DNA of 64,000 nt from Stutzerimonas stutzeri. GTDB taxonomy: Bacteria > Pseudomonadota > Gammaproteobacteria > Pseudomonadales > Pseudomonadaceae. Below the pieces are notes generated by a model that saw only the letters and a program-made list of their open reading frames with translations, did no database searches and was not told the origin of the DNA. Shown here in pieces: positions 20,722-33,285 of this stretch (its first letter is position 1; each line of letters starts with the position of its first letter). A program made the position numbers and the translations under genes. The stretch spans positions 42,696-106,695 of the forward strand of contig NZ_JAMOII010000012.1 in assembly GCF_024448985.1 (NCBI RefSeq), in the 5' to 3' direction.

Positions 20722-22095
20722 TCAGCTCACTACCCGGTAGCACGGCTCGTAAGGCCGTCCGCCGGGTAGCTTCATCCGATGCTGCAGGACGAACGCCTGC
20801 AGCAACTCGTCCAAGGGTTTCATGATTGCCGCGTCGCCGTGGATCTCGTAACGGCCGTGCTTTTCGATGCGGCGGATACCCTTGTCCTTCACGTTACCGG
20901 CGACGATCCCGGAGAACGCCCGGCGCAGGTTTGCCGCCAGTTCGTGGGGGGGGACGTCACGGGTCAGGCGCAGGCTGGCCATGTTCTCGTGTGTCGGGTC
21001 GAACGGATGCTGGAAGCCTTCGTCGATCTTCAGTAACCAGTTGAAGTGGAAGGCGTCGTTGCGCTCGCGACGGAACTGCTTGACGGCTTTCAGCCCCTCG
21101 ACCATCTGCCGGGCCACCTCGGCCGGGTCGTCGATGACGATCTGGTAGTGACGCTGGGCTTCTTCGCCAAGTGTCGCGCCTACGAAATCGCGCAGCTGCT
21201 GGAGGTAAGGCGCGGCGCTTTCCGGGCCGGTGAGGATGACCGGGAAGGGCACGTCGCGGTTATCCGGGTGCAGCAGGATGCCCAGCAGATAAAGGAATTC
21301 CTCCGCCGTGCCAACGCCGCCGGGGAAGATGATGATGCCGTGGCCCACGCGGACGAAAGCCTCCAGGCGCTTCTCGATATCCGGCAGAATCACCAGCTCG
21401 TTGACGATTGGGTTCGGTGCTTCGGCGGCAATGATGCCCGGCTCGGTCAGGCCCAGGTAACGGCCACCGACGATGCGCTGTTTGGCATGGGCGATGGTCG
21501 CGCCCTTCATCGGACCTTTCATCACACCCGGGCCGCAACCGGTGCAGATATTCAAATTGCGCAAGCCCAGCTCGTGGCCGACACGTTTGCTGTACTGGTA
21601 TTCCTCGCTGCTGATCGAATGCCCACCCCAGCAAACCACCATGTTCGGCTCGATGCCCGAGCGCAGGGTGCGTGCGTTGCGCAGCAGATGGAAAACGTAG
21701 TCGGTGATGCCGGCAGAGCTGCTCAGGTCGATGCGCGAGCTGCCCAGTTCGCTCTCGGTATAGACAATGTCGCGCAATGCGCTGAAGAGCATTTCTCGTG
21801 TGCTGGCGATCATCTCACCGTCGACGAAGGCATCGGCGGGCGCGTTGATCAGCTCCAGACGTACGCCGCGATCCTGCTGATGGATACGAACCTCGAAGTC
21901 GTCGTAAGCCTCGAGCACGGTCTTGGCGTTGTCGATGCGCGCGCCGGTGTTGAGAATCGCCAGCGCGCACTGACGGAATAGTGTGTAGGTGCTGCCCGAG
22001 CTGGCTTCGCTGAGTTGTTGTACTTCCCGCTGGGACAGTGTTTCCAGGCTGCCCTTGGGGGCTACCGAGGCATTGATTACATAGCGTGAGGTCAT
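20722..22095 (-). CDS. ppnN: Pyrimidine/purine nucleotide 5'-monophosphate nucleosidase (LOG family)
   Basis: PpnN (YgdH) cleaves nucleoside monophosphates to base and ribose 5-phosphate; the E. coli enzyme is tuned by (p)ppGpp. The product has 457 residues from the ATG at 22095, close to the E. coli length. The LOG-family core has CGPGVMKGPMKGA and the substrate motif PGGVGTAEEF (about residues 265-274), flanked by N- and C-terminal domains typical of PpnN. The start is supported by AGGGAACAG upstream; an in-frame codon at 22146 has no such support. Confidence 0.92.
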   Translation of the reverse strand: MTSRYVINASVAPKGSLETLSQREVQQLSEASSGSTYTLFRQCALAILNTGARIDNAKTVLEAYDDFEVRIHQQDRGVRLELINAPADAFVDGEMIASTREMLFSALRDIVYTESELGSSRIDLSSSAGITDYVFHLLRNARTLRSGIEPNMVVCWGGHSISSEEYQYSKRVGHELGLRNLNICTGCGPGVMKGPMKGATIAHAKQRIVGGRYLGLTEPGIIAAEAPNPIVNELVILPDIEKRLEAFVRVGHGIIIFPGGVGTAEEFLYLLGILLHPDNRDVPFPVILTGPESAAPYLQQLRDFVGATLGEEAQRHYQIVIDDPAEVARQMVEGLKAVKQFRRERNDAFHFNWLLKIDEGFQHPFDPTHENMASLRLTRDVPPHELAANLRRAFSGIVAGNVKDKGIRRIEKHGRYEIHGDAAIMKPLDELLQAFVLQHRMKLPGGRPYEPCYRVVS

Positions 22096-22465
22096 TCGTT
22101 CTGTTCCCTGAAAACAATGCCACCGAGCCAGGCAGGTCAGGTGCATCAGGTTGGTAAGCGCAGTGCGGTGTGGCCGCGCATGGTGCGGTCGCCCGGGCTA
22201 GCATCGCGCTAGCTTCCTCATTGCGATGCTTCGTCCAGATCGCCACAACGACAGCCGGGCTGAGACCGGCCATCTTACACCTGCCGCAGCGGCGCGCAGG
22301 GTGGGTTTACTTGACGTCCAGGACACGAGAAAGGTTCCGCACGATTAGCTGGCGGTTGGGTTGGGATGCATCCGGCGCGTCTCGCCACCACGGTTCGACA
22401 GTTGGCGGCGCAGTTGCACTTCGCCGCCTTAGTCCATTTCGTTCACGGCAGCAGGGGAGCTGCGC
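22096..22465. other. Spacer between ppnN and the cdsA-type gene
   Basis: About 370 bases with no credible gene. It must contain the ppnN promoter near its left end. Its right end is the downstream edge of the lipid cluster. I see no strong hairpin with a T tract, repeat family or recognisable operator. Confidence 0.5.
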
Positions 22466-23398
22466 TTACGCCCACCAATAACGCACCGTGTGAAAAAAGA
22501 TCGGTGCGGCGAAGCATACCGAATCGAGGCGGTCGAGCATGCCGCCGTGCCCTTCGATCATGTGCCCCCAATCCTTCACGCCACGGTCGCGTTTGATCGC
22601 CGACATCACCAATCCGCCGAAGAAGCCGAGCAGATTCAGCGTCAGTGCGATCAGCGCTGCCTGCCAGAAAGTGAAGGGGGTGATCCAGAACAGCGCCGCG
22701 CCGATCAGCGTCGCCAGCGCGATGCCGCCAACGAAGCCTTCGACGGTTTTCGACGGCGACAGGCTGGGCGCGATTTTGCGTTTGCCGGCCAGCTTGCCGC
22801 AGACGTATTGCAAAACATCGGAGAGCTGCACCACGATCACCAGCCAAGCGATCAGCAGCAGGTTGCGGCCTTCGAAGCCGGCGATCTCCAGCGTCAGTAG
22901 CGCCGGGACGTGAGACACGCAAAACACTGCGATCATCAGCCCCCACTGCACCTTCGAGGCGCGTTCGAGATAGCGCGTGGTGTCGCCGCCCAGCGAGGCG
23001 AGGATCGGCAACAGCAGGAAGATGTACACCGGAATGAAGATCGCGAACAGGCCGTACCAGCCGATGCCGACCAGCAGATACTGCACCGGCAGCACGAAAT
23101 AGAACGCCGTGATCAGCGCCGGATAGTCGCTGCGCCGGGTCGGTGCCAAGGTCATGAACTCGCGCAGGGCAAAGAAGGAAACCAGGTAGAACAGGATCAC
23201 CACCGCCGTGTGCCCGAGCCAGAAGGCGATGCCGATCACCGCGACCATCACCCACCAGGCGTTGATGCGCGCGTTGAGGTTGTCAATTACCGGGTTCTCG
23301 GCGTCGCCACTGCGGCGTTTAAGTACGAAGCCGATCAGCGAGGCCAGGGCGAGCAGGGCGCCGATCCCGGCGAACAGCATGAGTGTGTTGTTATCCAT
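22466..23398 (-). CDS. CDP-diacylglycerol synthase-like membrane protein (YnbB-like)
   Basis: Phosphatidate cytidylyltransferase family: makes CDP-diacylglycerol from phosphatidate and CTP in the inner membrane. It has 310 residues with about eight membrane segments and the CdsA C-terminal signature KIAPSLSPSKTVEGFVGG, plus SAIKRDRGVKDWG, MIEGHGGMLDRLDS. Because it lies in a cluster with a CDP-alcohol transferase and a YnbC-like fusion, it is more likely the YnbB-type paralogue than the housekeeping CdsA. Its start follows the acyltransferase stop by one base, so it is coupled. Confidence 0.88.
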   Translation of the reverse strand: MDNNTLMLFAGIGALLALASLIGFVLKRRSGDAENPVIDNLNARINAWWVMVAVIGIAFWLGHTAVVILFYLVSFFALREFMTLAPTRRSDYPALITAFYFVLPVQYLLVGIGWYGLFAIFIPVYIFLLLPILASLGGDTTRYLERASKVQWGLMIAVFCVSHVPALLTLEIAGFEGRNLLLIAWLVIVVQLSDVLQYVCGKLAGKRKIAPSLSPSKTVEGFVGGIALATLIGAALFWITPFTFWQAALIALTLNLLGFFGGLVMSAIKRDRGVKDWGHMIEGHGGMLDRLDSVCFAAPIFFHTVRYWWA

Positions 23399-23399
23399 G

Positions 23400-24020
23400 T
23401 CAGGCTTCCTCCGGCGCCAGTTCCAGCAGCGCCTGGCGGGCGCGAGTCAGGAACGCATCCTTGTCTTCGTTCTCGTCGATGCTTAGCGGCGCGCCGAAAC
23501 TGATCGTGCACAGCAGCGGCAAGGGCAGCGAGTGGCCCTTTGGCATCACGCGGTTGAGGTTGGCGATCCATACCGGCACCAGCTCCACGGCGGGTCGCGC
23601 CTGGCCGAGACGGTAGAGCCCGCCCTTGAACGGCAGCAGACCTTCTTCGAGATTGCGCGTGCCCTCCGGGAACAGGATCAACGAATGCCCTTCATCCAGT
23701 GCATCGAGCATCGGCTGCAACGGATCGACCGACGGGTCGCGCCGCTCACGGTCGACCAGCACGCCGTGAAACACGCGATTGATGATGAAGCGGCGCATCT
23801 GTCCCTTCTGCCAGTAATCCGCACCGGCTACCGGTCGGGTGCGTTTGCGCAGTTCGGGCGGCAGGGAGGCCCAGAGCAGCACGAAGTCGCCATGGCTGGT
23901 GTGGTTGGCGAAGTAGATACGCTGGGTGCGGGCCGGTGCGCAGCCCAGCCAGAGACTGCGCGCACCGGTGAGCAGGCGGGCCCCGGAGGTGAGCAGGAAA
24001 GCGGACAGGTAGCCGAGCAT
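23400..24020 (-). CDS. 1-acyl-sn-glycerol-3-phosphate acyltransferase family protein
   Basis: PlsC-type acyltransferase, 206 residues from the ATG at 24020 (GAGGGA upstream; an in-frame codon at 24089 lacks support). The catalytic motif is NHTSHGD (His40 and Asp45) and the substrate motif is FPEGTR at 117-122. One N-terminal hydrophobic segment probably anchors it to the membrane. It would supply phosphatidate to the CDP-diacylglycerol synthase encoded immediately after it. The 105 bases before it show no other gene. Confidence 0.88.
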   Translation of the reverse strand: MLGYLSAFLLTSGARLLTGARSLWLGCAPARTQRIYFANHTSHGDFVLLWASLPPELRKRTRPVAGADYWQKGQMRRFIINRVFHGVLVDRERRDPSVDPLQPMLDALDEGHSLILFPEGTRNLEEGLLPFKGGLYRLGQARPAVELVPVWIANLNRVMPKGHSLPLPLLCTISFGAPLSIDENEDKDAFLTRARQALLELAPEEA

Positions 24021-24125
24021 CGATTGTCCCTCAGGCCTCGCAGGCCGGTAGTAGTGAGGAGGCCAGCGCAGCCAGAAGCTGGCGCGCAAACTTACAACAG
24101 TGGCGGGGTGGGGTAGAGGGACGCA

Positions 24126-25880
24126 TCAGCTGACTCTCTGCGCCAGCGAAACACTGAAAATGCCCCATTCATCGATCCGCTGGGTCAGCTTGCGAAAGCC
24201 GGCCGCCTCGACCAACTGGTCCATTTCCGCCTGGCTGCGTCGACGCATGATCCAGGCTTGGCCGTCGCGGTGGCTGGTCAGGGCGCGGGCGATCAGCTCT
24301 AGCTGCGGATGCCAGGGTTGGCCGGTATAGATGAGATATCCCCCCAGCGGCACTGCCTCGGCCAGCCCGGCCAGTGAGTTCGCTAGCAATTGGTTGTCCC
24401 TAAACAGCTCATAGAGACCAGAGACGACGGCCAGTGTCGGTTTGGGATCGAGTGCGGCCAGGCTGGCCTGGTCGAAGGCATCTGCCTTGATGAAGCGGGC
24501 AATGGCACCGAGACCCTTTTCGCCGATCAACTTGGTGCCGTCGCCTACGTTGAGGTCGCTGTAATCGCGCAGCAGTATCGTCTCGGGCAGCGGTTCCACA
24601 TGCTCCAGGGCTTCGAGGATGTAGCGACCGTGACCGGCGGCTATGTCGACTATATGCACCGGCGCGTCAGCCTCGCGCAGATGCGCGATGGCTAGTTGCA
24701 ACAACTCTTCGACATGTCGCTTGCGTTGGCGAATACCGCGCCAGCCGATGGAATCCAGATAGTGCCGGTCGATCAGTCGACCCAGCGCCGATTTGCCGTT
24801 CGACTGGTTGCGATAGACGTAGTCCAGCGTGCTGCCAGAATCGAAGCCGGTCTCGAATCCCAGCCGGATACCGGCCGACATGCTCGCGGCCAGCCGCATG
24901 CCTGCACGCGTCGCGCGCCAGTACAGGTTCCGCATGGAGTGCTTCGGCAAGGCCGCAGCCAGCGCCTCGGCTTCGGCGCAGCTGGGGCCGATACGATCGG
25001 CATCCAGCAGGCAATGGCGCTCGGTGGCCGTCTGGAAGCTCTGCAAAATGAAGCGCCGAACACGACCGAGAGCCTGATGACGGTCACGCTCACCCAGCGT
25101 GTCGTGGAAAAATCCCGGAAGGATGTGTTTCTCCTTGCGTGCGCTACCCAACCGCGCGAAGAACTGCTCCTGCGGCTTGCGCTTGACCACAAAGTCGGCG
25201 CCGGAAATCAGCAACTGCGTCGGAATATGAATTGCCTCGGCATCGGCCACCACTCGCTTCGCCGCCTGATGCAGACCTAGCAGCATGTTCACCGAGATCG
25301 CCCTGGCAATCAGCGGGTCGCTCCTGTAGCTGGCGATGCGCGAGGTGTCGTGAGTCAGCAGTCTTGGCTTCACGTAGCTGTCGATGAAGAAATTGCCACG
25401 CCAGGCACGCAACAACGCCAGGCCTTGGCGCGCGAAGGGCACGTAGAGCTTTACCTGAAACGCCGGCGAGGCAAGCACCATAGCGCGGATTTTCGGTGCG
25501 TAGTCATGGGCCCAGGCCGACACGATCACCGCGCCGACGCTTTGTGCCAGCACCACCATGTCCGTTTCGTCTATTCCGTGCTGTTCGCCGATGTGTGCGA
25601 TGAATGTCTGCACGTCGCGCACGCTGGTGGCGAAGCTGGGGCTATCACCGCGCAGGCCCGGCGATTGGCCGTGGCCACGAGCGTCCCAGGCAAATACATC
25701 GAATCCGGGAAGATCCAGCTCATCGGCCAAATGGGCCATACGCCCCGAGTGTTCATGACCGCGATGAAACATCACCAGCGCTTGGCGCGTCGCAGCGTTT
25801 TCGGCAGTTGCCGGCCAGTGGCGATAGAAGAGCTCCACGCCGTCATGGGTGGTGAAGCTGCAAGCGTCGGAGGTTCGCAT
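24126..25880 (-). CDS. Alpha/beta hydrolase - methyltransferase fusion (YnbC-like)
   Basis: A 584-residue two-domain protein. Residues 1-280 form a monoglyceride-lipase type alpha/beta hydrolase with nucleophile Ser114 in LAQSVGA (Ala replaces the first Gly of GxSxG), Asp229 in ISGAD and His259 in GFFHDTLGE. After a linker, residues 380-584 form a class I SAM-dependent methyltransferase with the SAM loop VDIAAGHGRY (411-420). Length and architecture match E. coli YnbC, whose function is, to my knowledge, not established. The ATG at 25880 has AAGGA seven bases upstream; a TTG at 25898 is in frame but less likely. It follows the CDP-alcohol transferase by 23 bases. Confidence 0.88.
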   Translation of the reverse strand: MRTSDACSFTTHDGVELFYRHWPATAENAATRQALVMFHRGHEHSGRMAHLADELDLPGFDVFAWDARGHGQSPGLRGDSPSFATSVRDVQTFIAHIGEQHGIDETDMVVLAQSVGAVIVSAWAHDYAPKIRAMVLASPAFQVKLYVPFARQGLALLRAWRGNFFIDSYVKPRLLTHDTSRIASYRSDPLIARAISVNMLLGLHQAAKRVVADAEAIHIPTQLLISGADFVVKRKPQEQFFARLGSARKEKHILPGFFHDTLGERDRHQALGRVRRFILQSFQTATERHCLLDADRIGPSCAEAEALAAALPKHSMRNLYWRATRAGMRLAASMSAGIRLGFETGFDSGSTLDYVYRNQSNGKSALGRLIDRHYLDSIGWRGIRQRKRHVEELLQLAIAHLREADAPVHIVDIAAGHGRYILEALEHVEPLPETILLRDYSDLNVGDGTKLIGEKGLGAIARFIKADAFDQASLAALDPKPTLAVVSGLYELFRDNQLLANSLAGLAEAVPLGGYLIYTGQPWHPQLELIARALTSHRDGQAWIMRRRSQAEMDQLVEAAGFRKLTQRIDEWGIFSVSLAQRVS

Positions 25881-25903
25881 CCGGAAATCCTTTTCCAAAA
25901 TAT

Positions 25904-26515
25904 TCAGGCGGCTGTTTCGTTCAGTCCTTGGCGTACACGGTTGATCAGCGTGTACAGCGCAAGGGCGGCGATCAGCAGCAACGCTGCGTTGATCCAGCTT
26001 GCCGGCAACCAGCCGCAGGCCACGCCAGCGGCCAGTACGCCGAAGGCAAAGGCGCGGTCGCTCTTGCCCATGGGACCGTCGTAGCGACGGGAGGAACCGA
26101 CCATCAATCCTAGGACGCCAGCGTATTCACTGATCATCGCCAGCAGTACCACAGCGATGACCGCCTGCGGCCAAACGCCAGCGATCAGTGCGAAAGGAAG
26201 GTAGAGGGCGCTATCCGCTACGACATCACAGAGCTCGTTGAGATAGGCACCCAGCCTGGACTGCTGGTGAAATTCTCGCGCCAGCATTCCATCGATGGCA
26301 TTGAGCGCCATGCGCAAAAGCATCCAGATGGGGATCAATGCAAAAAGCCAGGTCTGCTGGACCCTCAGAGCGATGACGCCAGCGACCAGTAGCGACAGTA
26401 CGAGGGCGGCGATGGTGACCTGGTTGGCGGTAATGCCGAGCGCGTGGAGGCGTTGCACCAACGGGCGCAGCAGATCCTGAAAGCGTGGCTTGAGCTGATA
26501 GATGGAGAGCATCAT
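25904..26515 (-). CDS. CDP-alcohol phosphatidyltransferase family protein (YnbA-like)
   Basis: Membrane enzyme of 203 residues that would transfer a phosphatidyl (or similar) group from a CDP-lipid to an alcohol. The family motif reads NAIDGMLAR...G...N...D: the core Asp75, Gly76, Ala79, Arg80, Gly89 and the catalytic-base Asp97 are present. The first and third metal-ligand Asp positions are Asn72 and Asn93. About five or six membrane helices. First gene of the four-gene cluster; AAGGA lies just upstream. The acceptor alcohol cannot be read from the sequence. Confidence 0.88.
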   Translation of the reverse strand: MMLSIYQLKPRFQDLLRPLVQRLHALGITANQVTIAALVLSLLVAGVIALRVQQTWLFALIPIWMLLRMALNAIDGMLAREFHQQSRLGAYLNELCDVVADSALYLPFALIAGVWPQAVIAVVLLAMISEYAGVLGLMVGSSRRYDGPMGKSDRAFAFGVLAAGVACGWLPASWINAALLLIAALALYTLINRVRQGLNETAA

Positions 26516-26852: not shown

Positions 26853-27803
26853 TCAGAGCGCAAACGGCAATGCGCTATGGCATTGCCGGCGGGCGGCGAG
26901 CAGGCGGCGGAATTCTTCAGGGTCCTTGATCAGCACGGGTTGCCCGGCGAAGTTCTGCGCGGCGATCAGGCGCGAGAGCCAGAAACGCACGCCAGCCACG
27001 CGCAGCATCGGCTGCCACAACTCGGCCTCGGCCGGGGTGAAGCGGCGCAGGCTGGAGTAGGCGGCGAGCAGCGCCTGGCTGCGCTCCTCGTCGAGTTCAC
27101 CGTTGGGGTGGCTGCACCAATCGTTAACCGTGATGGCGATGTCGTAGAGCATTGGCCCGGAGCAGGCATTGTAAAAATCGATCACGCCGGTCAGGTGACC
27201 CCCCTCGAAGAGCACGTTGTCGCGGAACAGGTCGGCGTGCAGGTTGGCGCGGGGCAGGGCGAGGATCTTCGGTTTCAGCTCGGCGATTTCCGTCAGGCTG
27301 TCGCGCAGTAGCGGTAGCTGGGCCTCCGGCAGTCCCATGGCGATGCTGGGGCCCTCTTCTTGCATCCAGTCCAGGCCGCGGTCGCTGCGTCGCTCGATGA
27401 TATGTTCGCGCGTTGTCAGATGCAGGCGCGCCAGCAGTCGGCCCACTTCGCTGCAGTGATGGGCATTGGGCGCCGCGACGTGCCGGCCCGGTAAGCGCGG
27501 TTGCAGCAGCGCCGGCTTGCCTGCCAGGTTGCGCAGGGCTTCGCCGTCGGCGGTCTGTAGTGCGTAAGGCACCGGCAGGCCTGCCCGGTGCAGTACTTCG
27601 AGCAGCTCGATGAAGAACGGCAGGTCCTGGGTCGGTCCACGCTCAACCAGGGTCAGAACGTACTGACCCTGTTCCAGGCTGACGAAGAAGTTGCTGTTTT
27701 CGCTGCCGGCGGCGATGCCCTCGAACTCTTGCAGACGGCCTAGCCCATAAGGCGCCAGAAAAGCTTCCAGTTCTTCGTGTTGCAGCGGGGTGAATACCGA
27801 CAT
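26853..27803 (-). CDS. thrB: Homoserine kinase (ThrB, APH-fold type)
   Basis: Phosphorylates homoserine in threonine synthesis. The 316-residue protein has the choline-kinase/aminoglycoside phosphotransferase fold used by Pseudomonas-type homoserine kinases rather than the GHMP fold. The catalytic loop is NLHADLFRDNVLF (about residues 203-215) and the metal-binding Asp lies in GVIDFYNA. It lies upstream of the ynb-like genes and 30 bases after the DUF2782 gene on the same strand. Confidence 0.93.
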   Translation of the reverse strand: MSVFTPLQHEELEAFLAPYGLGRLQEFEGIAAGSENSNFFVSLEQGQYVLTLVERGPTQDLPFFIELLEVLHRAGLPVPYALQTADGEALRNLAGKPALLQPRLPGRHVAAPNAHHCSEVGRLLARLHLTTREHIIERRSDRGLDWMQEEGPSIAMGLPEAQLPLLRDSLTEIAELKPKILALPRANLHADLFRDNVLFEGGHLTGVIDFYNACSGPMLYDIAITVNDWCSHPNGELDEERSQALLAAYSSLRRFTPAEAELWQPMLRVAGVRFWLSRLIAAQNFAGQPVLIKDPEEFRRLLAARRQCHSALPFAL

Positions 27804-31144: not shown

Positions 31145-31330
31145 GCCTGTTGAAAATTCCTGCACTCTTCGTATGGCCGAATTCATTAGGTGATAGTCCC
31201 ACGGCGGCCGAACAAGTTTGGCCCTACCGGACTGCAAGGCGCGTTGGGTCCGCCGGACTTTCATGAGGTACATGCCTTGTAGGGCCGAATTCGGCCATGG
31301 CTCCGCGCCGCCGAACAAGTTCGGCCCTAC
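31145..31330. repeat. REP-like repeats between ersA and the DUF4105 gene
   Basis: Three units of a second repeat family (GTAGGGCCGAACTTGTTCGGC type). They are CCGAACAAGTTTGGCCCTAC at about 31208-31227, GTAGGGCCGAA at 31279-31289 and its complement TTCGGCCCTAC at 31320-31330. The last two form an inverted pair whose right arm contains the stop codon of the DUF4105 gene (31327-31329) and may terminate it. A related fragment lies at 8573-8593. Confidence 0.65.
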
Positions 31331-33285
31331 GGCAACTGCAGCCCGCCGCCGGCCTTATGCAAGCCACGCAGGCGATCGCCAATTTGCGCCAGATTGGCCT
31401 CCACATCCTCCAACTCTAGCCGACGCTCCTCACTCAACAGCAAGCGAACCTCTGCGTTCAGCGTCTCGGTGAGCTGCAGCAGCCGTGCCTGGCGCTGGCT
31501 GCTTTCCTGCTCCAGGCGCGCCCATTCGCTGGCCTGCGGTAGCCCGTAGCCGTGGCCATCGAGCAGCTCGGCTGGGCGACTCAGGTAGCCGCTATTAGCG
31601 AGGATGCCCTGCAGCGTGTCGTCGGCCTTGGCTAGGCTCTGGTCACCGCGTTCGCGACCACTCAGGTAGCGATTCTTCAGTTCTTCCTGTGCAAGCAACA
31701 GATGCCGGCGTAGCGCGGCTTGCTCCACTAGCAACAGGGCCGCGCTAGCGCGCAGGTCAGCCTGGGCGATCCAAGGGCGGCGCTGCTCGGCGCTTAGCGC
31801 CAGCCAATCCTCGACGTTGCTTTGCGGCAGGCCCAGCCGCTCGCGGAGCACCGCGAACATGGCTTGGTAGCGGTCGCGGTAGGAGTCGAAGCGATAACCC
31901 AGACGCAGCGCCTCGCGCGGGTCGTCGAGTACGCTTGCATCGGCTACGCCACGATTGATCAGAATCTCTAGCAGCCCGCTGGGCAGGATGCTGTCCAGCG
32001 CGTCGAATTCGGGACGGGCCGTCCCGCTGCGCAGCAGCTTGAGGGTTTCCACGGCGCAGTTATTGGACAGGAAGTAATAGTCGCCGTCATAGCTCCAATG
32101 CATCTCCGCGCTGCGCTCGACCAGCATATCGATCTCGCGCCGCTCCAGTTTCAGCGGAATCGAGGCCAGGCTGCGCAGCTCGACCTTGGTGTATTCGTCG
32201 ATCACCTGACCCAGCGGCAGGACAAACAGGCGCGACGGGTAGACGCCGGTGAGGCCGTCCCAGCTGGACAGCTGCACGTCACCGACGAAGGCACGGAAAG
32301 ACAACACTAGGTGGTGATCGAGATCCAGCCGGCAATCCGGCCCGCTTGGACGGCCAGGCGCGCAGATCACCAGACGCAGCATGCTGTGCCCCCAACGGCT
32401 GACCCAGGCGTCATTGGCCTCGGCGAACAGATAGTCCACTTCGTAGACGCGTTCCGGATCGAGTTCCACTAACGGTGTGCGGGCGAAATCATGACCGGCG
32501 TTGAGGATCGGCAAACCGCTCGCGCATTCATCCATTTCTGCCGGCTGCCAGCCGAAATGTTCGCGGAAATAGCGATGCAGGGAAGGTCGGCGGCAGGCGT
32601 AGCTGGGGTCCAGCAGGAAGTACTCCAGATTCACCGCAACGAATTCGAGGGGATTGGTCAGCTCATACATATCGGGGCTACGAGCGGCCTGAGCATTGCT
32701 GACTTCCCGCTCGCCGCGTTGGCCGACGCGCTGGGGCCAGCCGGCGAGATCGAGCAGGCGCGGGTCGTCGCTGAGGGTGAAGCGGCGCTCGGTCTGGCCG
32801 CGGCAGGCATCTGGCAATCCCACCAGACCGAGGCTGGCGGCGCGCTGACTGCAAAATGCGAGCTGCCGATAGCCTTCCGGCGACCAGAGCCGAGCGCGAT
32901 CGTAGAGGTGAGCGATTTCGTGAATCAGCGTGGCCAGCAGCTCGCGGCGTACGGTCCCATGCGGGCGGCTGGTGCGTTGCGTGGCGGCGGAGCCATCGCT
33001 CAGCGCGGGCAGCAGACGGCGGTTGAGCAGCAGCTGATCGCCGCCAGCACTTCCGTAGACGTCATGCGTCAGCCCATCGTGCCAGCGGACGCGTACGTCC
33101 CGGTCGAGGTGCTCGACCATCCGCGGTGGCAATGCGGCCATGGCTTCATTCAGTAACTGCTGGCTAGCCGCTTGTTCGGCTGGTTGCAGGTTGCGGTCAT
33201 CCAGCGTCAGGCGAAGGTCGGCCTGAGCAAAATTGGCGAGCGCGGTGAGCGCAACGGCAATCCACCATGCGCGAGGTGATTTCAC
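31327..33285 (-). CDS. DUF4105 domain-containing exported protein
   Basis: A 652-residue protein with an N-terminal signal (about residues 1-22, ...LANFAQA). The first part contains a zinc-peptidase-like HEIAHLYDRA segment near residue 118. The middle is the DUF4105 domain (YEVDYLFAEANDAWVSRWGH... and YFLSNNCAVETLKLL), in which the His and Cys residues resemble a papain-like/NlpC-type arrangement. The C-terminal 150 residues are Gln/Glu/Arg-rich and probably helical. The start is GTG, overlapping the stop of the preceding DUF2388 gene as GTGA, so the genes are coupled. The catalytic role is unknown. Confidence 0.85.
   Translation of the reverse strand: MKSPRAWWIAVALTALANFAQADLRLTLDDRNLQPAEQAASQQLLNEAMAALPPRMVEHLDRDVRVRWHDGLTHDVYGSAGGDQLLLNRRLLPALSDGSAATQRTSRPHGTVRRELLATLIHEIAHLYDRARLWSPEGYRQLAFCSQRAASLGLVGLPDACRGQTERRFTLSDDPRLLDLAGWPQRVGQRGEREVSNAQAARSPDMYELTNPLEFVAVNLEYFLLDPSYACRRPSLHRYFREHFGWQPAEMDECASGLPILNAGHDFARTPLVELDPERVYEVDYLFAEANDAWVSRWGHSMLRLVICAPGRPSGPDCRLDLDHHLVLSFRAFVGDVQLSSWDGLTGVYPSRLFVLPLGQVIDEYTKVELRSLASIPLKLERREIDMLVERSAEMHWSYDGDYYFLSNNCAVETLKLLRSGTARPEFDALDSILPSGLLEILINRGVADASVLDDPREALRLGYRFDSYRDRYQAMFAVLRERLGLPQSNVEDWLALSAEQRRPWIAQADLRASAALLLVEQAALRRHLLLAQEELKNRYLSGRERGDQSLAKADDTLQGILANSGYLSRPAELLDGHGYGLPQASEWARLEQESSQRQARLLQLTETLNAEVRLLLSEERRLELEDVEANLAQIGDRLRGLHKAGGGLQLP

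Follow-up and report, generated by a model that had tools for sequence, protein, structure and literature searches.

A reduced arc1/ynb-like lipid gene cluster in Stutzerimonas stutzeri with a non-canonical metal-site motif in its YnbA-like protein

Four adjacent genes of Stutzerimonas stutzeri, at positions 22466-26515 on the minus strand of a 64,000-nucleotide stretch of contig NZ_JAMOII010000012.1 (hereafter the window), resemble the arc1 locus of Pseudomonas aeruginosa, a published resistance factor against type VI attack, and ynbABCD, a little-characterised operon of Escherichia coli. In the order of transcription they encode a YnbA/Arc1A-like protein (A), a YnbC-like fusion of an alpha/beta hydrolase and a methyltransferase (C), a PlsC-type acyltransferase (P) and a CdsA/YnbB-like cytidylyltransferase (B). 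Our analysis leans modestly toward the view that this cluster is a reduced arc1/ynb accessory phospholipid module, which makes a minor lipid with a likely benefit under attack. That view reasons from what was observed, namely which genes are present, how they are arranged, their history, the motif of A and its predicted fold, to the catalytic steps, acceptor, product and role. The part that should surprise specialists, and that should be new to them, is a family-wide pair of asparagines in the metal site of A, which replaces the vague label "phospholipid synthase homologue" by a well-defined question on one membrane enzyme family.

Gene A (25904..26515) encodes 203 aa and matches CDP-OH_P_transf (PF01066, E 7.5e-9), the family of cytidine diphosphate (CDP)-alcohol phosphotransferases. 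Its motif reads N72-x2-D75-G-x2-A-R-x8-G-x3-N93-E94-x2-D97-x3-D101 and is accompanied by the loop GPMGKSDR. The signature of the superfamily is D-x2-D-G-x2-A-R-(x8)-G-x3-D-x3-D (PMC8633023; here and below, papers are cited for the passages concerned), and its residues have been called "eight absolutely conserved amino acids" (PMC4634129). When A is aligned to Mycobacterium tuberculosis PgsA1 (6h53), the codons of Asn72 (26300..26302) and Asn93 (26237..26239, both on the minus strand and counted from ATG 26515) take the places of the first and third motif Asp, D68 and D89. In PgsA1, four Asp hold two metals, the first and third among them (PMC6506517), and in the phosphatidylserine synthase (PSS) of Methanocaldococcus jannaschii every substitution at these residues lowered activity or abolished it (PMC8633023). 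Because two of the eight signature positions are broken, it is doubtful that A works as an ordinary CDP-alcohol transferase.

The Asn/Asn motif was found in 159 of 164 hits to the A profile, 153 of the 159 being distinct in sequence. Among the 158 best hits, 153 follow the pattern N-x2-DG-x2-A[RK]-x8-G-x3-NE-x2-D-x3-D, and the same 153 have a GPxGKSDR loop. The five exceptions are a canonical protein of a different family (L204), two truncated proteins (L201 and L205) and two distant ones (L202 and L203); these last two are CDP-alcohol-transferase-like, adjoin P and B and keep both Asn, with AV replacing AR. E. coli YnbA and all six plasmid-borne A proteins described below share the motif. As a control, one profile search covering 30 loci gave 9 Asn/Asn proteins, 10 other superfamily members with Asp/Asp and 11 proteins without a readable motif, and the two other PF01066 proteins of the window's own genome are Asp/Asp. 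The ratio of nonsynonymous to synonymous substitution rates (dN/dS) was 0.04-0.17 for A, P and B in 15 comparisons with five relatives, in which some dS values exceeded 1 and were near saturation; all three are under purifying selection, with values of 0.08-0.17 for A alone. No description of the Asn/Asn motif appeared in the titles and abstract openings of the papers listed for the ynb genes, arc1 and the motif, a search that subscription papers mostly fell outside.

An AlphaFold model of A with 20 sequences reached a predicted local distance difference test score (pLDDT) of 89.9 and a predicted template modeling score (pTM) of 0.80. In the PDB it matched 16 chains at E <= 0.001, all belonging to the CDP-alcohol phosphotransferase superfamily. 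Phosphatidylinositol phosphate (PIP) synthase chains were the best, with template modeling scores on the query (TMq) of 0.68-0.81, compared with 0.50-0.54 for phosphatidylglycerol phosphate synthase, 0.32-0.46 for serine synthase and 0.57 for one cholinephosphotransferase. A preliminary description of this DNA, made from the sequence alone, had named A a CDP-alcohol phosphatidyltransferase; the superfamily fold agrees with that name, and the broken signature makes it doubtful that A is an ordinary member. With the PIP synthase/PgsA1 branch, A shares the predicted fold, the second and fourth Asp, both motif Gly and one acceptor-phosphate Arg, but differs from it in the two Asn. The shared Arg is R193, which falls on R195 of PgsA1 in the same alignment to 6h53, and R195 was proposed to bind the acceptor phosphate (PMC4634129). 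Each of the 159 motif-bearing proteins has an Arg at this position, as found by pattern for 155 and by eye for 4. The alignment of this residue therefore points to a phosphorylated acceptor for A, which would also explain the phosphatase partner, D, encoded at most related loci.

The four reading frames are all open and complete among the open reading frames (ORFs) of the window. Gene C (24126..25880, minus strand) encodes 584 aa and matches PF12146 and PF12147, with Hydrolase_4 (E 3.8e-71) and Methyltransf_20 (E 3.4e-152) lying within a single chain; it retains the catalytic Ser/His and the S-adenosylmethionine motif, as expected of a YnbC-type fusion, and among solved structures its N-terminal half comes closest in sequence to monoacylglycerol lipases (E 4e-18). 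Gene P (23400..24023, minus strand) encodes 207 aa (PF01553, E 4.4e-17) and has the HX4D and EGTR motifs, each of which is present in 124 of the 125 loci having P. Gene B (22466..23398, minus strand) encodes 310 aa with a CTP_transf_1 domain (PF01148, E 4.4e-72) and carries S-x2-KR-x4-KD and HGG-x-[LMI]-DR-x-D, as in CdsA/YnbB; both pieces are present in all 130 B-bearing loci. The Pfam matches of the four proteins are all above the curated cut-offs, and in NCBIfam none of the four had a match above its cut-off. The starts of C and P should probably be moved from the TTG codons of the listed ORFs (25898 and 24089, respectively) to ATG 25880 and ATG 24023, which fit the relatives; this leaves a C-P gap of 102 bases. 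Thus, the four families in one orientation that the preliminary description reported are borne out by Pfam and by complete minus-strand frames.

P and B share Pfam families and motifs with the housekeeping PlsC and CdsA and are extra copies in the same genome, which holds two other PF01066 copies, one other PF01148 (two in total with B) and five other PF01553 (six in total with P). Since further copies of all three families are present, the cluster adds to housekeeping lipid synthesis, and the earlier idea of a separate branch from phosphatidate to a CDP-lipid gains support.

To compare arrangements, genome contigs were scanned with a C alignment, and the best 80 of 448 encoding stretches were kept, a set biased to window-like C proteins and nearly all labeled Pseudomonas. 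Profiles of six families (A, C, P, B, D and a small membrane protein, X) were built from the 80, and the sources numbered 146 with 64 further stretches, E. coli and the window. Because at least five contigs were entered twice (e.g., L055 and L131, L027 and L155), the figures count loci and not independent genomes. D, a phosphatase, has a DSPc domain and a weak PAP2 match, and X matches no Pfam family at the cut-off. The order A-C-D-X-P-B was found in 117 of the 146 sources, 113 of them clean and 4 with ORF-caller artefacts in which a gene was overlapped, doubled or split (CADXPB twice, ACDDDDXPB and AACDXPB once each). By gene number, kinds and the PAO1 annotation, this order probably corresponds to genes PA2541-36. 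The window's A-C-P-B order occurs in four sources (the window, G039, G244 and P. guariconensis L054), A-C-X-P-B in two, A-B-C-D in two and C-D-X in two, while C stands alone in 12 (11 of the genus and 1 of another family), besides one split C of the genus. A-C-D-X-B-P, A-B-P-C-D, A-B-C, B-C and C-B with A reversed are single cases, and one stretch with a weak PF12147 match holds none of the six families.

P accompanies A in 125 of the 129 A-bearing loci, so the conserved co-occurrence that the preliminary description had put forward as a check is found; in the Pseudomonas-dominated part, made up of the named set together with genomes of the genus and of the family, the figure is 121 of 121. 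The same description regarded the acyltransferase as inserted into a ynbABC-like cluster. This does not hold, because A, P and B recur together and E. coli K-12 belongs to the minority of four loci without P; a local insertion of P is ruled out because P accompanies A and B at the majority of loci observed, and within the genus it is C that appears to be the gene added, between A and P. Other gammaproteobacteria have A-B-P and A-B with no C within the stretch seen. Thirty plasmid records match A, and six of these regions were inspected, their hosts being alpha- and betaproteobacteria, Citrobacter and a cyanobacterium; A, B and P were together every time. A faces C-D-X-P-B on a Shinella plasmid, P-B with no C nearby on a Caballeronia plasmid, and profile matches of C, D, P and B on a Rhizobium plasmid, while A-C-D-X faces P-B on a Burkholderia ambifaria plasmid. 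A Citrobacter IncF plasmid (L238) has A-B-P-C-D and a small sixth gene, and a Pseudanabaena plasmid has A-B-P with the methyltransferase half of C, the hydrolase half being absent. The Citrobacter cluster adjoins a Tn3-family transposase and a recombinase; the Pseudanabaena Methyltransf_20 half (L234:8215-9159) directly follows A-B-P and lies beside nif genes. Six Escherichia records of the plasmid collection match A as well.

Within the genus (56 genomes), A is present in 22 genomes and C in 14, with 13 genomes having both, 9 only A, 1 only C and 33 neither. Among the other 21 A loci of the genus, 19 were fetched (G039 had been fetched earlier with its C, and G055 was left out). All 19 share the window's site, arranged thrB-A-P-B-ppnN, and lack C between A and P; 10 of these 19 genomes have C elsewhere (one split). 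Altogether, 12 genus genomes have C apart from A-P-B, at a second conserved site (one copy split, one cut by the contig end). Its neighbors there are by Pfam of the LrgA type and, if the contig extends far enough, of the DedA/PAP2 type; other genes near this site presumably encode LON-domain and ProA proteins. For instance, the fusion at L106:6992-8746 lies between an LrgA-type block and a DedA-PAP2 protein, similar sites are seen in L103, L104 and L107-L115, and in L115 (G019) C is split into two reading frames.

A tree of A+P+B, built from 151 loci, makes the window and G042 sisters (support 0.991) within the thrB-ppnN group, and G039, with A-C-P-B at another site, is the first branch. The A-P spacers of the three nearest relatives are similar to each other and about 70 bases long, while in the window the segment from the stop of A to the start of P (24024..25903), which holds C, has 1880 bases. 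On the simplest reading of these sequences, C was gained once in the window's line between A and P, with repeated losses of C as a possible alternative. Since the spacer evidence carries the gain only, our claim is a gain of C at this site and not its source. A FastTree phylogeny put the window's C outside the group of L105 and the solo C genes (support 0.989); in a more careful tree its position was not fixed, and a single genus clade was not rejected by the approximately unbiased (AU) test (p 0.222), which leaves a horizontal source, as read from the tree, undecided.

The cluster seems to have been reduced as well. In a tree of A+C+P+B, the window and G039 fall within the six-gene loci (supports 0.926 and 0.975). 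The partner of L054 is L152, which has six genes (0.998), and the two A-C-X-P-B loci form a pair (0.984) that is also surrounded by loci of the six-gene form (0.994). By parsimony, D would have been lost at least three separate times in Pseudomonadaceae. No relic of D or X was seen by eye in the 102-base C-P gap, where no alignment was run.

The four genes of the cluster are of the same kinds and in the same order as the six-gene locus of Pseudomonas minus D and X. In P. aeruginosa, PA2541-36 were named arc1A-F, are under Gac/Rsm control and are needed in competition with the type VI secretion system (T6SS) of Burkholderia thailandensis; five of the six genes are lipid-related, and four resemble phosphatidylglycerol synthesis enzymes (Ting et al. 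2022, PMC8926400). The arc1-3 naming was used again in a 2025 preprint (PMC11888443), and arc1A mutants lacking H1-T6SS were more sensitive to Vibrio cholerae, less so when TseL was not active, and to Acinetobacter baylyi carrying only Tle1 (2025 Nature Communications, PMC12663445). As to E. coli K-12, the preliminary likening to ynbABC is upheld by C, A and B, which are 55, 46 and 41% identical to YnbC, YnbA and YnbB, respectively, and needs amending in that K-12 has four genes in the order A-B-C-D, the last encoding the phosphatase, with neither P nor X beside them. More is in print than that description allowed, on YnbB and the glycolipid MPIase (PMC6362211) and on arc1 (PMC8926400, PMC12663445).

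According to the module reading, P would acylate a lysolipid such as lysophosphatidate to phosphatidate, which B would convert to CDP-diacylglycerol. A, with its PIP-synthase-like fold and Asn/Asn metal site, may then transfer the phosphatidyl group onto a phosphorylated alcohol; the product would be a minor phosphatidyl-X-phosphate lipid. As an optional addition, C might hydrolyse a lysolipid or trim and methylate a product. In most of the Pseudomonas loci seen, D would remove the head phosphate; as D and X are apparently lost in the window, either a housekeeping phosphatase would stand in there or the phosphate would stay. The likely benefit would be envelope repair or protection under rival attack, lipase toxins included, as reported for arc1 of P. 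aeruginosa. The smallest set worth expressing would be A-P-B rather than six genes, since D looks dispensable and C optional.

Several observations weigh against this reading. Changing the third Asp of M. jannaschii PSS to Asn cost activity, of which extra magnesium restored little or nothing, while the passages concerned give no outcome for Asn at the first Asp (PMC8633023); with this result and two metal-binding Asp missing, it is not certain that A acts as a transferase. PgsA1 has a further phosphate-binding Arg, R155, which aligns one column off the Arg of GKSDR. Two of the six genes, D and X, are not in the window's cluster: D had no match in any of five genus genomes tested, the window's included (all four controls matched), and X is absent from the cluster and was not sought elsewhere in the genome. 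P is found with A in only 4 of 8 loci outside the Pseudomonas-dominated sets, E. coli included, and the co-occurrence of A and C in the genus (Fisher p 3e-6) ignores relatedness. That A-C-D-X-P-B corresponds to PA2541-36 is itself deduced from gene number and kinds in the published description. Nor is the link of arc1 to lipases clean: the arc1 defect persisted with each of the single-effector mutants of B. thailandensis, those in Tle1 and Tle3 among them, and arc1 was given a broader role (PMC8926400), while the part of arc1A was called auxiliary to arc3A (PMC12663445). YnbB did not replace CdsA (PMC6362211).

The same findings could be read in other ways. A may be no transferase but a subunit that binds or regulates (CDP-diacylglycerol, lysolipids, or P and B), so that the module only raises phosphatidate and CDP-diacylglycerol locally for membrane repair. 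That 159 of 164 hits, along with two of the remaining five, have Asn for two of the four metal-binding Asp fits such a role, as does the inactivation of a homologous enzyme by one such change (PMC8633023), but all 153 motif-bearing proteins retain D75, D97, E94, D101 and the GKSDR loop. The low dN/dS of A and the retention of the Asn pair across proteobacteria and a cyanobacterium also speak for a working enzyme, although all of this is compatible with a fixed non-catalytic role, and on balance we think this explanation unlikely. It is very unlikely, in our judgment, that the product is a glycolipid of the MPIase kind, with B making CDP-diacylglycerol and sugar-pyrophosphate-diacylglycerol and A, C and P tailoring it: overproduction of YnbB raises MPIase in E. 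coli, whereas deletion of ynbB brought no significant change in the passages concerned (PMC6362211), Pfam shows no glycosyltransferase domain in any protein of the cluster, and the predicted fold of A is that of a phosphatidyl transferase.

Another account, which we consider quite unlikely, separates C from the rest, as a stand-alone lysolipid hydrolase and methyltransferase that sits in the operon by chance beside an independent A-P-B system. The 12 genus genomes with C at the other conserved site, the 9 with A and no C, and the Caballeronia plasmid with A, P and B but no C nearby would suit it; however, 13 of the 14 C-bearing genus genomes also have A, and in distant groups, the cyanobacterium among them, A, B and P have C or at least its methyltransferase half as a neighbor. 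Going beyond the module reading, we put forward tentatively, as a possibility with more doubt than confidence, that YnbA/Arc1A is a mechanistically distinct branch of CDP-alcohol phosphotransferases, whose Asn/Asn site may hold one metal or use E94/D101 as ligands and which serves an acceptor closed to ordinary members, yielding an as yet unknown attack-induced lipid; A, P and B would be the minimal kit, and C and D exchangeable head-group tailoring.

The shared site is bounded upstream by thrB (26853..27803, minus strand; NCBIfam PRK05231) and downstream by ppnN (20722..22146, minus strand; Nsidase_PpnN), both above cut-off; the further upstream neighbor beside thrB is presumably polA. Gac/Rsm control was tested through GGA counts: the 60 bases before A contain one GGA, as any Shine-Dalgarno sequence gives, and counts ahead of A exceed those of random windows, an excess that a Shine-Dalgarno sequence would explain. 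A promoter scan returned 0 sites (1.0 in shuffles), and terminator-like sites numbered 8 versus 4.2 in shuffles (standard deviation 2.2). Elsewhere in the window, positions 31327-33285 encode a 652-aa protein with DUF7844 and Lnb_N domains.

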